6,314 nt of DNA from an uncultured Alphaproteobacteria bacterium (GTDB lineage Bacteria > Pseudomonadota > Alphaproteobacteria > Micropepsales > Micropepsaceae). Position numbers and translations under genes: made by a program. This document shows positions 1 through 6,314 of the stretch, one piece after another (the stretch's first letter is position 1; each line of letters starts with the position of its first letter). The stretch spans positions 1 to 6,314 of the forward strand of contig CAIXUE010000253.1 of the NCBI GenBank assembly GCA_903922545.1, in the 5' to 3' direction. Below the pieces are notes generated by a model that worked only from the letters and a program-made list of their open reading frames with translations, was not told where the DNA came from and made no database searches.

Positions 1-1358
1 AAGACGATGCGGGTGGAGACGGCGCGGATGGTTTCCTTGAGATTGACCGAAGTGCGGCGTTCCTCGTCCATCACGCCGATCTTGATGGTGTTGCGGGCCA
101 GACCCAGAAGATCTTCGACCCGGTCGAAAATCTCGCCCGCAAAGGCGGCCTCGGCGGGGCCGTGCATCTTGGGCTTGACGATATAGATGGAATTCTTGCG
201 GCTGTTGCCGCGGCTGGTGTTGGCTTTCAGGTCATGCAGCGCGATCAGGCTGGTGACCACCGCATCCAGAATGCCTTCGGGAATTTCGCTGCCATCCGCC
301 AGCAGCACCGCATCATTGGTCATCAGATGGCCGACATTGCGGATGAAGAGGAGGCTGCGGCCGGGCAGGGTGACAGGTTTTCCGTCCGGCCCGGTAAAGC
401 TGCGGTCCGGATTGAGGGCGCGCTCCATGGTCTTGCCGCCTTTTTCAAAGCTGGCGGTGAGCGAGCCTTTCATCAGGCCAAGCCAGTTGCGGTAGGTGGC
501 GGTTTTGTCATCGGCATCCACCGCGGCGATGGAATCTTCCAGATCCATGATGGTGGTGAGCGCCGATTCCAGCGTCACATCGGCGATGCCTGCCGCGTCG
601 GTCTTGCCGATGGGCGAGGTGCGGTCGAACAGGATTTCGATGTGCAGGCCATTGTGGCGGAGGAGAATCGAAGCCGGGGCATCGGCGCTGCCGGTATAGC
701 CGGCGAACTGGTCCGGCGTGACCAGACCGCTCTGCGAGCCATCGGTCAGGGTGACGGAAAGCGCGCCGTTGTTGATCACATAGGATTTGGCGGATTTGTG
801 CGAGCCGTTTTTCAGCGGCGCGGCCTGATCCAGGAAATCGCGCGCAAAAGCGATCACCGCGTCGCCGCGCTTTTGGTTATAGCCTTTGCCCGCGGCCAGA
901 TCGCCGTCCTGTGAAATCGCGTCTGTGCCATACAGCGCGTCATAGAGGCTGCCCCAGCGCGCATTGGCGGCGTTGAGCGCGAAGCGGGCATTGGACAGCG
1001 GCACCACCAGCTGCGGGCCGGCCAGCAGCGCCACTTCGGGATCAATAGCGGGGGTGGTAATGGAGAAATCCGCGCCTTCGGTTTGCAGGTAACCGATGCC
1101 CCGCAGGAAGTTTTCATATTCGGCTTTGTCCAACGCCTTGCCGCGCCGGGCGGTGTGCCATTCATCAATCTTGGCCTGCAGATCGTCGCGACGGGCCAGA
1201 AGGGCGCGGTTCTTGGGCGCCAGATCCGTGGCCAGTTTGGCGAAACCGCTCCAGAAGGCATCGCTGGCGATGCCGGTGCCGGGCAGCACCTCCTTTTCGA
1301 TAAAATCATGCAGCACGCGCGCGACTTTGAGGCCGTGGGTGGAAATCGTACCGGTCAT
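1..1358 (-). CDS. glcB: Malate synthase G, N-terminal 452 codons (runs off left edge)
   Basis: Condenses glyoxylate with acetyl-CoA and water to give malate and CoA, a cytoplasmic Mg-dependent step that assimilates glyoxylate from glycolate or acetate. The translation begins [19 protein letters not shown] and follows the monomeric G isoform, which is about 720 residues long, so roughly 270 C-terminal residues are missing. Visible family signatures are [32 protein letters not shown] and [13 protein letters not shown]. Arg340 matches the catalytic arginine (Arg338 in E. coli), and the acidic pair in MDEERRT (from residue 430) includes the Mg-binding Glu (Glu427 in E. coli). The later Mg-binding Asp and the catalytic Asp lie beyond the edge. 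The ATG at 1358 gives a normal N-terminus, but its ribosome-binding site is weak (AAGAAGA about 8 bases upstream). The gene lies 112 bases downstream of the permease gene, with a terminator between. Identity is certain at family level; whether the gene is intact beyond base 1 cannot be seen. Confidence 0.96.
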
Positions 1359-1414
1359 GGGAGGTCTTCTTTGTTCAAGGCCGGGGCACCGTAAAACGCC
1401 AGGCGGCAGGGGTC

Positions 1415-1447
1415 AAAAAGAAAAGGCCGGGCACATGCCCGGCCTTT
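1415..1447 (-). terminator. Rho-independent terminator after the permease gene
   Basis: A perfect 11-base-pair GC-rich hairpin has arms at 1422-1432 and 1437-1447 and a 4-base loop. Read on the minus strand, the arm AAAGGCCGGGC is followed by its complement and then by the U-rich run TTTTCTTTTT down to 1415. It begins 24 bases past the permease stop codon and ends 57 bases before the glcB start codon. It therefore terminates permease transcription and separates it, at least partly, from glcB. On the plus strand the hairpin is followed by a poorer T-run, and no plus-strand gene ends here. Confidence 0.9.
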
Positions 1448-1470
1448 GCTTATTGCAGATGTGAAGGACT

Positions 1471-3138
1471 TCAGCCCGCAGGCACTGTGGCCATGAACAG
1501 CGGTACGTAAGCCTGCAGCATCGCCAGGACGCCCACCAGGCAGCCCAGGATCACCGACGGCCAGAAGACAAAGCGCAGGATGCGCGCCTCGCCGCCCTGC
1601 CAGCCGGTGGCGGCAACCGCCACCACGATGGAGGAGATGCAGATGATCTTGCCCATCACGCCGCCCACCGAATTGGAGCCGGCCATCAGGACCGAGGAAA
1701 TCCCCAGCTGATGCGAGGTGACCATCTGAAGGCCGCCGAACAGGGCGTTGGCCGCCGTGTCCGAACCCGTCGCCGCCACGCCCAGCCAGCCCAGCATGGT
1801 GCCGAAGAAGGGATAGAAGAAGCCGGTGCGGGCAAACGCCAGACCCAGGGTGCCGTCGGCGCCGCAGGCGCTGGTCACCTGCGCCAGCGACAGCATGGCG
1901 GTGATGGTGAGGAGCGGATAGCGCACGACATAGAAGGTTTTCAGATAGTGCTTGAACTGGGAGACCGGCCCAAAGCCCATCACAAAGCCGGCGATGATCG
2001 CCGCCACCAGGATGCCGGTGCCGGCATAGCTGAGGAAGGTGAAGTTCAGGATTTCCGCCAGCGGCGTCGGCTTGGAGAAGGCCGGCGGCATCTGGATGAT
2101 CATCTTGTCCACGCCCGGCAGGTGATAGACCGGCCCGAAGATCGGGTTGACGATGTGCTTGAGCATGTCGCTGGACCAGAAGGCCACCACGACGCACAGG
2201 ATCAGCCACGGAACCCAGGCGCTGAACATCTGGCCGGCGGTGGGCGCAACCTTGAGCGGCTCCGGCGGTTTGACGTCGCTGTGGGAATTGTCGGCGAATT
2301 TCAGCGCCGCGTTGGTCATGATCTCTTTGGGCTGCCAGACGCGCAGGAACAGCACCAGGCCGGCCAGCGCGGCGGCACCCGCCACCACGTCCACGATATA
2401 GGGATTGGAATAGTTGGAGATCAGATAGGCCGGAATGGTGAAGCACAGCGCCGCCACCAGAAGAGCGGGCCAGACTTCCAGCATCTTCTTGAAGCCGCAG
2501 AACATGTAAACCATCACAAACGGGATCACGAGCGAGAAGACGCAGGACTGACGCCCTATGATCTGGCTCAGTACCATCGGATCAAGGCCCGTGGACGCCG
2601 CCAGCGCGGTGATCGGCGCGCCCAGCGCGCCGAAGGCCACGGTTGCGGTATCAGCCAGAAGCGACAGGCCCGACGCGGCCAAGGGCGAGAAGCCCAGGCC
2701 CATCAGCATGGCGGCGGAAACCGCCACCGGCGTGCCGAAGCCCGCCGCGCCTTCAAAGAAAGCGCCGAAGCAGAAAGCGATGATGATGAGCTGCAGGCGC
2801 CGGTCGGCGGTGATGCGGCCCATGGAATATTGGAAGATGGCGAAATAGCCCTTATCGACCGTAAGACGGTACAGGAAGATCACGTTGACGATGATCCAGC
2901 CGATGGGGAAGAAGCCGGCGACAAAGCCCAGGCCCGTGACCTTGGCGGTCATGTCGGCCGGCATGCCGTAAGCGAAAATCGCGACCAGGATCATCGCGCC
3001 CAGGCCGAGCAATGCCGCCCAATGGGATTTGACTTTGCCGGTGGCGATCAGCGCCAGCAGCAGCACGATCGGAAACGCCGCCACGATGGTGGACAGGACC
3101 GCGTTGTTCAACGGATCGTAAATTTGATGAAAGAGCAT
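1471..3138 (-). CDS. lldP: L-lactate/glycolate permease, LctP family
   Basis: Inner-membrane proton symporter of the lactate permease family (TC 2.A.14), whose E. coli members LldP and GlcA (551 and 560 residues) carry L-lactate, D-lactate and glycolate. This protein is full length at 555 residues. It has about 12-14 hydrophobic segments, for example at about 17-33, 41-58, 71-90, 116-150, 199-214, 224-240, 249-266, 306-321, 368-390, 436-454, 498-511 and 525-548. Conserved family stretches are [16 protein letters not shown] (125-140), [12 protein letters not shown] (458-469) and [13 protein letters not shown] (487-499). The ATG at 3138 follows a G-rich stretch (CGGGGGG) about nine bases upstream, a modest ribosome-binding site. 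Sequence alone does not separate LldP from GlcA. The adjacent malate synthase G favours glycolate (glcA), since in E. coli glcB and glcA are neighbours in the glc operon, though in the opposite order. No lactate or glycolate dehydrogenase is in the window. Confidence 0.95.
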
Positions 3139-3157
3139 GGCGATAAACCCCCCGTAT

Positions 3158-3186
3158 GTCTTATGTGCTGTGTTCCGTTAGACCAA
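3158..3186 (-). promoter_or_regulatory. Candidate permease promoter overlapping a GntR/FadR-type half-palindrome
   Basis: On the minus strand, TTGGTC (3186-3181) and TAAGAC (3163-3158) are separated by 17 bases and sit about 20 bases upstream of the permease ATG. Each matches only about half of the sigma-70 consensus. The -35 element overlaps TGGTCTAACGG (3185-3175), which resembles the TNGT-N3-ACNA operator pattern bound by FadR-subfamily GntR regulators such as LldR, GlcC and PdhR, with the last position not matching. The position fits repression of a hydroxyacid permease, but this is pattern-matching by eye and no regulator gene is in the window. Confidence 0.25.
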
Positions 3187-3265
3187 AAAACGGCGCTGCG
3201 GCCAAGGCCAGAACTACGGTGCGCTGCAGCATTTCCCGTCACAAATCCGTCAGGTCACTTGGCGG

Positions 3266-3628
3266 CTATTTGTTCCAGGTGCTGGCAATATGGTCGGGAT
3301 CTTCCTGCGAGCTGCGTTCATGGCGCAGAAAGTCGAAATAGCCGCAGTTTTTGCTGCCGGGATATTCGCGGCAGATGGTGGGCCGGGCGGTATAGACCGT
3401 GCAGCGCCGCGCTTCGGTATCGAAGAAGCGGCAGATGCGGCCATAATGCTCATCTTCCTTGCGGCGCATGGCATAAGGCTCGTCGCCATCCACCTTGGTG
3501 AATTTCTTGCGCGCGTCCTTGAAGCCCAGGCCGAAATGCTCGGCCAGGCGGGTCACGTCTTTCTTGGTGAGAGGGATGACCGGATAGGAGCAGCAATAAC
3601 CGGGACATTTGGAGCAGTTGTAAGCCAC
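3266..3628 (-). CDS. YkgJ-family cysteine-cluster protein (UPF0153), putative metal-binding
   Basis: Small cytoplasmic protein of 120 residues from the chosen start. It has the two cysteine groups typical of the YkgJ/UPF0153 family, which is annotated as zinc- or iron-chelating without a settled function. The N-terminal group is C5-x2-C8-x3-C12-C13 (YNCSKCPGYCCSYPVI). The second is C66-x9-C76-x9-C86 within ICRFFD, RRCTVYTARPTICREYPG, with a further Cys at 95. No signal peptide or membrane segment is seen. The frame stays open upstream to a TTG at 3784, which would give 172 residues. I prefer the GTG at 3628: AGGAAGG lies six bases upstream of it, the added 52 residues use rare codons (CTA, AGA, AGT, GCA) unlike the neighbours and show no domain, and the TTG overlaps the divergent gene's start codon. 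It lies 127 bases upstream of the permease gene on the same strand. I see no functional link to it. Confidence 0.88.
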   Translation of the reverse strand: MAYNCSKCPGYCCSYPVIPLTKKDVTRLAEHFGLGFKDARKKFTKVDGDEPYAMRRKEDEHYGRICRFFDTEARRCTVYTARPTICREYPGSKNCGYFDFLRHERSSQEDPDHIASTWNK

Positions 3629-3783
3629 AAAAAGCCTTCCTGACTGGTGATGGTAACCGAATAGCACAGGCAATTTGCCCGGCGAGGCTTTATTATCCGC
3701 TTTTGCCGGAATTTCGCCACTTCTTGCAACTAGGTTCTTTTTCGGGGCGTCAAAGTCGTAATTCGGGCTGTTTTTAGCTGGCA
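3629..3783. promoter_or_regulatory. Divergent intergenic region between the YkgJ-family gene and the trifunctional gene
   Basis: If the GTG at 3628 is the true start, these 155 bases are non-coding and must hold promoters for both divergent genes. The stretch is visibly richer in A and T than its surroundings. A palindromic TTGCAA lies at 3724-3729 and could serve as a -35-like element in either direction. On the minus strand GATAAT (3697-3692) resembles a -10 box, with only a weak TGGCGA about 16 bases upstream of it. No convincing plus-strand -10 was found. Exact promoter positions are not supported. Confidence 0.45.
3635..3641 (-). promoter_or_regulatory. Ribosome-binding site deciding the YkgJ-family start
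   Basis: AGGAAGG on the minus strand is followed by a six-base CTTTTT spacer and then the GTG at 3628. It is the only good Shine-Dalgarno match near any candidate start of this frame (TTG 3784, TTG 3673, GTG 3667, GTG 3628). Confidence 0.6.
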
Positions 3784-6314
3784 ATGGGCAACAAACCGGT
3801 TTTCTTCGACGTCACGGGGCGGCGTGCGGCGCGCATTTCGACCCTTGGCTGGGCGGCTGCCATTATCAGCACCATTCTGGGCATCGGCTTTGTCGCCAGC
3901 CTGATCATCGCCCCGCCCACACCCAATATGGACCTGCCGGGCCGTTCGGTGGCGGTGAACCCGCCCCAGCTGGTGGCCCGCGCCGTGGCGCCGGGCCTGC
4001 TCAAGACGGCGGCGCGGCTGGCGGCCGAGGCCCGCGCCAGACGGCTGGAAATCCAGCGCCTGCGCCATTTTCGCAATATCACGCCGGTGCGGGTTCCTGC
4101 CGGCCTGTTGCCGAAAAAAGGCCGGGCGCTGGCGATCGGTTTTTACGTCAACTGGCCTTCATCGGAGGATTCCAGTTTTTCGTCGCTCAAGCGCGCCTTG
4201 CCCCGCCTGGACTGGGTGATCCCAAGCTGGCTGGGGCTGGATGGGCCGGCGCTGACCTTCAAGGCCAATATGGATGCGCAGGATGTGCGCACTCTCACTT
4301 ATATAAGGACGCGCAAGCCGGACACGGCTGTGCTGCCGCTGCTGCAAAATGCCTCGGGCGGGAAATGGTATGGGCCGGAGCTGGGCAAGCTGCTGGCCGA
4401 TCCGGACCGGCGCACCGCCCTGATCAAGAACGTGACGGACTTTCTGACCGCCAACAAATTGCAGGGCGTCGCCGTTGATTTTGAAGACGTGCAGCCGGCT
4501 GATCACAAAAATCTGGAAGCCTTCCTGACGGAAATGTCGGCCGCCTTCACGCCGCATGGCTGGGTGGTGGCGCAGTGCGCGCCGTTCGATGACGACAGCT
4601 GGCCCTTCCGCGCCTATGCCAACATTGTCGATTACACCATTCTGATGGCGTACGACGAAGCCGATTCCTCCGCGCCGCCGGGCGCGATTGCGGGCGAGGA
4701 TTGGTTTGAACGCATGCTGGACAAGCGCATGCGCCAGCTTTCCGCCGACAGCACCATCGTCGCGATCGGCAATTACGGTTACGACTGGACGCCGGGCGAG
4801 GCACAGGCCACGACGCGGGAATTTTCCGAAGCCATGGTGGCGGCGCGCGATTCTGGCGCCACCATCCAGTTCGACAATGCCAGCAACAATCCGCATTTTT
4901 CCTATAACGAAGGCGACGGCACCAAGCATCAGGTCTGGTTTTTGGATGCGGCCACCGCCTTCAATCAGATTCATGCCGCCGACGGCTATCAGCCTGCCGG
5001 CTATGCGCTGTGGCGGCTGGGCACCGAAGATCCTTCCCTGCTGCCGCTGCTGGGGCGGCCCTATAATGCGCCGCTGCCCGTCAGCCTGAAAACCATTCCG
5101 GCCACCGATGATGTGGATTTCGACGGTGAAGGTGAAATCCTGCGGGTTGAATCGGGCCCCGTCACCGGCGCGCGCGATTTTCGCACCGACAAGGACAGCG
5201 GCGATATCGTGCAGGAAAATTACACCAGCCTGCCGACCAATTATGTGATCCGCCGCGTCGGCCAGGTGAGCAAGAAGCTGGCGCTTACGTTTGATGACGG
5301 GCCCGATCCGGAATGGACGCCGCAGATTCTGGATATTCTGAAGGCCAAGCATGTGGCCGCGACTTTTTTCGTCATCGGCGCGAACATGGAATCCCATCCC
5401 GGTCTGGTGCAACGGATCCTGCGCGAAGGCCATGAAGTCGGCAATCATACCTATACGCATCCCAACCTGGCCGACACGCCGCTGGCGGCGGTGCGGCTGG
5501 AGTTGAACGCGACCCAGCGTTTGTTCGAAGCTTTGACCGGCCGTTCGATGCGGCTGCTGCGTCCGCCCTATCTGGGTGACGCTGAACCCACTGATGCCGA
5601 CGAGATCGTGCCGATCGAAGAGGCGCAGAAGCTGGGTTACGTCACCATCGGCACCCATGTCGATACGCTGGACTGGAAGATGCTGCCGGTGCCGGACATG
5701 ATGAAGCTGGTGCTGAAGGAAGTGGCCGATCCCAATCCGGATATTCGCGGCAATATCATTCTGATGCACGATTCCGGCGGCGACCGGTCGGAGACCGTCA
5801 AGCTGCTGCCGGTGCTGATCGATACGTTGCGCGCCAAGGGTTATAGTTTCGTGCCGGTGTCGGAACTGGGCGGGTTCAAGCGCGACGACATCATGCCGCC
5901 CCAGCCTTTGACCGTGATGCTGTACGAAAACCGGGTGGTGTTTCTGACCATCTCGTATCTGGGGCAGGGGCTCTATTACTGTTTCATCGCCGCGATCATT
6001 TTGGGGATTGGGCGGCTGTTGCTGTTGTGCGGGCTGGCGCTGGCCAACCGAATCCGCAAGCGGCCCGAGCCGGCGGTGAATGACAATGGCCCCGCTGTGA
6101 CGGTGCTGATCCCCGCCTTCAACGAAGAAAAAGTGATCGTTACCACGGTCGAGCGCATCCTGGCCAGCAATTACAAAAATCTGGAAGTGCTGGTGATTGA
6201 TGACGGCTCCAAGGATCACACCGCCTATATCGTGCGTTCGCACTTCATGCGCGACAAGCGCGTGGGCGTGATTTCCATTCCCAATGGCGGCAAGGCCAAT
6301 GCCCTGAATGTGGG
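3784..6314 (+). CDS. Trifunctional GH18 / polysaccharide deacetylase / family 2 glycosyltransferase (runs off right edge)
   Basis: Membrane protein of at least 843 residues, probably about 1,100 when complete. Domain order: cytoplasmic N-terminus (PVFFDVTGRRAAR); membrane segment at about 20-43; Ala/Arg-rich helix at about 63-97; GH18 domain at about 115-425; linker to about 498; NodB-type CE4 deacetylase at about 499-695; membrane segment within about 720-755, then RIRKR; GT2 domain from about 772. GH18 marks are VAVDFED with Glu234 as presumed acid, MAYD at 288-291 and LW near 411. CE4 marks are TFDDGPD (502-508), H555-x3-H559, RPPY (593-596), LDW (629-631) and LMHD (660-663). GT2 marks are IPAFNEE (776-782), DDGS (806-809) and GGKANALN (835-842). 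The architecture matches the uncharacterised trifunctional family recorded in CDD. The ATG is the first after an in-frame TAG at 3775 and lacks a clear ribosome-binding site. Inferred role: making and modifying an N-acetylhexosamine-type envelope polysaccharide. Substrate unknown. Confidence 0.93.
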   Translation, partial: MGNKPVFFDVTGRRAARISTLGWAAAIISTILGIGFVASLIIAPPTPNMDLPGRSVAVNPPQLVARAVAPGLLKTAARLAAEARARRLEIQRLRHFRNITPVRVPAGLLPKKGRALAIGFYVNWPSSEDSSFSSLKRALPRLDWVIPSWLGLDGPALTFKANMDAQDVRTLTYIRTRKPDTAVLPLLQNASGGKWYGPELGKLLADPDRRTALIKNVTDFLTANKLQGVAVDFEDVQPADHKNLEAFLTEMSAAFTPHGWVVAQCAPFDDDSWPFRAYANIVDYTILMAYDEADSSAPPGAIAGEDWFERMLDKRMRQLSADSTIVAIGNYGYDWTPGEAQATTREFSEAMVAARDSGATIQFDNASNNPHFSYNEGDGTKHQVWFLDAATAFNQIHAADGYQPAGYALWRLGTEDPSLLPLLGRPYNAPLPVSLKTIPATDDVDFDGEGEILRVESGPVTGARDFRTDKDSGDIVQENYTSLPTNYVIRRVGQVSKKLALTFDDGPDPEWTPQILDILKAKHVAATFFVIGANMESHPGLVQRILREGHEVGNHTYTHPNLADTPLAAVRLELNATQRLFEALTGRSMRLLRPPYLGDAEPTDADEIVPIEEAQKLGYVTIGTHVDTLDWKMLPVPDMMKLVLKEVADPNPDIRGNIILMHDSGGDRSETVKLLPVLIDTLRAKGYSFVPVSELGGFKRDDIMPPQPLTVMLYENRVVFLTISYLGQGLYYCFIAAIILGIGRLLLLCGLALANRIRKRPEPAVNDNGPAVTVLIPAFNEEKVIVTTVERILASNYKNLEVLVIDDGSKDHTAYIVRSHFMRDKRVGVISIPNGGKANALNV

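Follow-up and report, generated by a model that had tools for sequence, protein, structure and literature searches.

The window analyzed here is a 6,314-nucleotide stretch (positions 1 to 6,314, forward strand) of contig CAIXUE010000253.1 from an uncultured member of the Alphaproteobacteria (family Micropepsaceae; assembly GCA_903922545.1), and its right end carries a gene that joins a GH18 glycoside hydrolase, a CE4 deacetylase, and a GT2 glycosyltransferase. The gene occupies 3784-6312(+) as a single unbroken open reading frame (ORF), with an ATG start and 843 codons without a stop, whose 3′ end is open at the window edge. As an earlier, sequence-only reading had proposed, all three domains lie in this one frame, each with a Pfam match over its cut-off: Glyco_hydro_18 at residues 118-413 (61.9 bits, cut-off 29.6), Polysacc_deac_1 at residues 496-598 (121.1 bits, cut-off 23.1), and Glycos_transf_2 at residues 773-842 (62.6 bits, cut-off 23.3), the last cut short by the window edge at 71 of 168 profile positions. 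The three domains share one polypeptide in the window and are all complete in P0001, a homologue 85% identical to the window protein, whose GT2 domain carries QRFRW, an instance of the expected QxxRW motif. The features of the gene, all on the plus strand, are as follows (row counts refer to the alignment described below).

3784..6314, +, N-terminal 843 codons of a GH18-CE4-GT2 membrane protein of about 1140 amino acids (aa); runs past the window edge
3784..3852, +, N-terminal tail, predicted to be cytosolic, bearing the VFFDxxGRR motif (alignment)
3853..3909, +, first membrane segment, residues 24-42 (hydropathy; helix 13-42 in the P0001 model)
4135..5022, +, GH18 domain, SleL/YaaH-like TIM barrel
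4477..4485, +, D-F-E, the retained end of the GH18 catalytic motif, residues 232-234 (sequence, alignments)
5263..5877, +, CE4 (NodB-type) deacetylase domain (Pfam core 496-598; extent by alignment)
5287..5307, +, CE4 motif 1, TFDDGPD (sequence; Asp pair in 263/263 rows)
5446..5460, +, CE4 motif 2, HTYTH, which we take to be the metal-binding motif (sequence; both His in 263/263 rows)
5986..6042, +, second membrane segment, residues 735-753, followed by RIRKR (hydropathy; helix 708-754 in the P0001 model)
6100..6314, +, start of the GT2 domain (Pfam; DDGS present, domain complete in relatives)

Full-length relatives and predicted topology

A homologue search returned 1399 proteins at E 0.001 or better from 7995 candidates scored. 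Among the best 120 of these 1399, 116 are 1120-1169 aa long and 4 are shorter (773, 898, 928, and 1023 aa), and those whose organism is named come from Rhizomicrobium or the Alphaproteobacteria. The full protein of the relatives is about 1140 aa long, with a complete GT2 domain and C-terminal membrane helices; of the GT2 motifs, DDGS lies inside the window, and DxD, ED, and QxxRW, which fall past its edge, are seen in relatives only. We considered truncation just past the window as a possible family trait and rejected it, given that relatives extend to about 1140 aa, even though some match rows are fragments or contain a stop; the stop or frameshift that the sequence-only reading named as fatal to its proposal is, accordingly, not the rule in relatives.

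The same reading placed GH18 and CE4 in the periplasm and GT2 in the cytoplasm. In P0001, the membrane-adjacent Lys and Arg residues number 3 in the N-terminal tail and 5 and 5 (within 15 residues) at the ends of the GT2 loop, with just 1 and 1 at the ends of the 672-residue middle loop. In the P0001 model, residues 708-754 form a single long helix, and the GT2 and membrane part aligns with hyaluronan synthase over residues 726-1118. Together, hydropathy, charge distribution, and model support the predicted periplasmic placement of GH18 and CE4 and the cytosolic placement of GT2. For the three-domain model, the VIA list holds GH18 and GT2 folds only, and CE4 matches are found in the Foldseek list.

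The N-terminal tail (window 3784-3852) belongs to the most strongly conserved regions of the family, and in the P0001 model it has a predicted local distance difference test (pLDDT) score below 50. Its motif, VFxDxxGRR (VFFDVTGRR in the window), is retained in nearly all alignment rows that reach it (29 to 30 of the 263 are gapped); F7 is found in 232 of 233 ungapped rows and R14 in all 234. By Pfam, CE4 and GT2 are the only domains in a Kocuria protein and in the single Streptomyces protein analyzed; the tail motif is present in the Kocuria protein, without GH18, and is unclear in the Streptomyces plasmid protein. We know of no described role for it.

Conserved GT2 and CE4 sites and a repeatedly replaced GH18 glutamate

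To compare active sites, we aligned 263 sequences, comprising 240 homologues, 22 locus proteins, and the window protein; the 240 are the best 120 matches of each of two queries, a nonrandom set that includes near-copies (e.g., P0121 matches 93% of the L022 protein at 100% identity). CE4 domains have five catalytic motifs, all of which are found by sequence alignment, and in P0001 numbering D501, D502, H552, H556, R590, D627, and H659 are present in 263/263 rows (Y593 and W628 vary). The GT2 positions are likewise fixed, save for gaps and for one D856E, one R985P, one W986S, and a total of four exceptions at W927/R928. The GH18 glutamate (E231 in P0001), in contrast, is kept in 217 of 263 rows; 41 rows have a different residue and 5 a gap at this position. 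What is new here, then, is that across 263 sequences the seven CE4 residues are always kept and the GT2 motifs nearly always, while the GH18 Glu is repeatedly replaced.

D288 and W407 of the GH18 domain are both conserved at 100% (rounded) in the 217 rows with Glu and at 49% and 80%, respectively, in the 41 rows without it. Mean pairwise identities in GH18, CE4, and GT2 are 42%, 55%, and 60% among representatives that keep the Glu and 33%, 48%, and 61% among those in which it is replaced. A FastTree phylogeny based on the CE4-GT2 part, in which an 85% identity filter reduced 259 usable rows to 138 representatives, requires five changes between Glu kept and Glu replaced, gapped rows being uncounted; the direction of these changes is inferred, and some long branches of the tree are unsure at those points. 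The sequence-only reading held that synthesis, deacetylation, and cleavage are covalently coupled: the three domains are indeed joined, but coupled cleavage is not a fixed family property, because the Glu is replaced in 41 of 263 rows and the site is missing in 5.

The window protein itself retains the catalytic Glu. The GH18 catalytic motif is DxxDxDxE; in the window, Q and A stand in place of its first two Asp residues, a shortening shared by SleL in the alignment. We consider it rather unlikely that GH18 is mainly a binding or structural module even where the Glu is present, as could be argued from the replacement of the Glu in 41 rows in which W382, D385, G410, and E412 are kept and from the early Asp positions, which are not Asp in an aligned set of 121 sequences. 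D229, M285, D288, and W407 are 98 to 100% fixed in the 217 Glu rows, as an active site would be, and the shortened motif recurs in SleL-type sequences.

Genes adjacent to family members may bear on where cutting takes place. DUF3131 genes adjoin the family member in Sulfitobacter, Limimaricola, G155, and G389, and DUF3131 proteins lie beside Glu-replaced members at L013:11000-13537, L023:9021-11594, L026:7556-10045, and L063:11374-13824. The C-terminal half of the DUF3131 protein is predicted to be β-1,2-glucanase-like, and there is a weak deacetylase match as well; its VIA list is filled by matches to residues 477-857, with no deacetylase among them, and a PDB sequence search with this protein gave nothing at E 0.1. 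In G017, a Wza-type Poly_export gene lies directly downstream of the family member, as it does in G002 (L002, 64-69% identical; together 2 of 13 genomes), and a stand-alone GH18 gene also follows. All 3 Glu-replaced genomes of 14 have an adjacent further glycosidase-fold gene (DUF3131 or stand-alone GH18), and none was found next to the family member in the 11 Glu-kept genomes; thus, cutting may be supplied in cis or in trans, as judged from about two independent cases, with neighborhoods covered for 5 of the 41 Glu-replaced rows. The GH18 Glu is kept at all 44 loci of a broader neighbor study (40 from the order of the closest genome, G001, plus L001, L002, L020, and L073, with crude gene calling by third-position GC content).

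Proposed function and comparison with known systems

We propose, with moderate confidence, that one inner membrane protein polymerizes, deacetylates, and trims an N-acetylglucosamine (GlcNAc)-type polysaccharide, like PgaC joined to a PgaB-like periplasmic domain pair. The cytosolic GT2 domain would extend the chain with GlcNAc from UDP-GlcNAc and, as hyaluronan synthase does, drive it across the membrane through a channel that it forms with the membrane helices. On emerging, the chain would encounter CE4, tethered to the helix leading into GT2, and be partially deacetylated, and GH18, tethered by the first helix, would cut or edit it. This proposal draws on the three domains, on CE4 motifs that are intact and a GH18 that has its Asp/Glu pair, on GT2 motifs intact in relatives, and on the predicted topology. 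Weighing against it, the best fold match of GT2 in the P0001 model is a mannosyltransferase, which lowers our confidence slightly.

The protein is not of a new kind. The GH18-CE4-GT2 trio is, we presume, the one catalogued as GH18_trifunctional (CDD cd06549), with no function described; that entry has the same three domains in a single bacterial polypeptide, we know of no difference from it, and the window protein is most likely a member. A search with the identifier led to a matching paper whose main text does not show it, and no paper on the trio was found in the open-access literature (titles and abstract starts).

The closest characterized relative is Streptomyces MatB, described as a two-domain CE4-transmembrane-GT2 protein required together with MatA for poly-N-acetylglucosamine (PNAG), staining for which is absent in matA, matB, and matAB mutants (PMC5972031, PMC4391728). 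The corresponding part of the window protein has this architecture, with an extracytoplasmic CE4 domain, a membrane helix, and a cytosolic PgaC-like GT2 domain in common. MatB, however, lacks GH18 and works with MatA, whereas the window protein carries an N-terminal GH18 domain and so departs from the two-domain form. We found no described function for the trio itself, as the sequence-only reading held, but with MatB characterized and PNAG dependent on it and MatA (PMC5972031), polymer and role are not a blank.

Analogies to PgaC/PgaB and NodC/NodB, both drawn by the sequence-only reading, fare unequally for GT2. The best NCBIfam match of P0001 is PgaC_IcaA (TIGR03937; 188.6 bits, under the equivalog cut-off of 422.3), and NodC is weaker (TIGR04242; 106.9 bits, cut-off 550); NodB gives 129.9 bits (TIGR04243, cut-off 240). 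The PgaC-PgaB pair likewise combines a PgaC-like GT2, a periplasmic deacetylase, and a TIM-barrel hydrolase, but as two chains, PgaB being a deacetylase plus GH153 hydrolase (PMC5933820), whereas the window protein is one chain and the hydrolase found is GH18. Also unlike the PNAG machinery, the family comes with no PgaA match over the cut-off in 13 genomes; weak short matches of 17.5 to 41.5 bits carry little weight because the same search also gives matches in 12 of the 14 control genomes, one of which exceeds the cut-off. Divergent Gram-negative PgaB clades are similar in that deacetylases are fused to GT domains without pgaA or pgaD, but they are described without a hydrolase domain, and the term GH18 is absent from the main text of the paper (PMC7112194).

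A β-1,4-linked, chitin- or chitosan-like polymer, made by a chitin-synthase-like GT2 with genuine chitin-type CE4 and GH18 domains, is an unlikely alternative that nevertheless has several points in its favor: the top CE4 scores are to PdaB, NodB, and PgdA models, GH18 matches best with chitinase and SleL structures, and GT2 has a weak Chitin_synth_2 match (38.6 bits, cut-off 27). The higher PgaC_IcaA than NodC score speaks against it, as does MatB, whose CE4 is also nearest to PgdA/NodB and which goes with PNAG, calcofluor staining being independent of matAB (PMC5972031). Peptidoglycan remodeling, with the cell wall as the target of CE4 and GH18 and with GT2 supplying or tagging a lipid-linked sugar, is improbable, since the QxxRW motif of relatives and a membrane part resembling that of hyaluronan synthase are consistent with a processive polymerase, and export genes adjoin in 2 of 13 genomes.

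Returning to the proposed polymerase, a bolder extension is possible but doubtful: in a PNAG-like pathway, cutting would be obligatory but portable, the fused GH18 having lost its Glu several times and a neighboring gene taking over, either a stand-alone GH18 or a DUF3131 protein whose β-1,2-glucanase-fold C-terminal half and perhaps deacetylase-like other half would make it an unrecognized PgaB counterpart, with the window protein as the complete one-chain form. The biological role of PgaB hydrolase activity and its coordination with deacetylation have been called unknown (PMC7112194). The family offers a natural comparison, the cutter's Glu being kept, replaced, missing, or possibly moved to a neighboring gene while the other two sites are kept, and so opens the role of polymer cutting to testing. 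Its distribution further suggests that an amino-sugar polymer occurs in the order of G001, in which 62 of 96 genomes match the gene at E 1e-150 (some as fragments on short contigs); a search of open-access titles and abstract starts with the genus name Rhizomicrobium found nothing.

Occurrence and gene neighborhoods

Of the 64 match rows from the order of G001, three have one in-frame stop (TGA in G833:C7, TAA in G808:C141, and TAG in G840:C35), reflecting either pseudogenes or assembly errors. In class-level samples the gene is rare (6/289 and 8/385 genomes, the samples overlapping); in a phylum sample, 31 of 398 match at 1e-60, 9 across 80% or more of the model and the other 22 in the GT2 part. 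Plasmid records gave 26 matches, of which 18 span 80% or more of the query: eight in Sphingobium, five in Sulfitobacter, two in Novosphingobium, and one each in Sphingomonas, Deinococcus, and Prevotella. The gene of Sulfitobacter sp. OXR-159 (L025:4149-7562), annotated as two reading frames with transposase genes close by, is probably broken.

To the left of the trifunctional gene, three minus-strand genes, for a CxxCxxCC protein, a lactate permease, and malate synthase G, show no obvious functional connection to it.

3266..3784, −, divergent neighbor, CxxCxxCC (PF03692) protein; relatives are 120-162 aa, and the true start probably lies downstream of the listed TTG
3-3138, malate synthase G (truncated by the window edge) and lactate permease, a layout that recurs in 7 of 44 related loci

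Across the 44 loci, the immediate left neighbor is divergent in 27 of the 43 with a called neighbor (4 more are antisense calls over divergent C5), and the immediate right neighbor is convergent in 28 of 44 (6 more are antisense calls over convergent C2). At least 16 loci have C5, the CxxCxxCC family, and at least 26 have C2, whose L001 member is weakly PMT_2-like. Recurrent same-strand neighbors were mostly not found at these loci: C15 (directly downstream in 6/44) and C16 (directly upstream in 4/44) were rejected as operon partners, being antisense calls over convergent C2 and divergent C5, respectively, and C24, a same-strand cluster free of this artifact, lies directly upstream in 2/44 and within two genes in 3.

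Among other neighborhoods, three sphingomonad loci (L009, L010, and L015) contain VirJ/AcvB genes and two contain MprF-type lysyl-phosphatidylglycerol genes, with sensor kinases near, a possible link to surface charge. In Deinococcus, a diguanylate cyclase adjoins the family member. The convergent neighbor of the Kocuria CE4-GT2 gene is annotated as a chitinase (GH18 match of 22.9 bits, under the cut-off), and in two genomes (L058:11059-13981 and L059:1782-5207) the family member has a GT4 gene, a gene for an unknown protein of about 315 aa, and a DUF2334 gene nearby.
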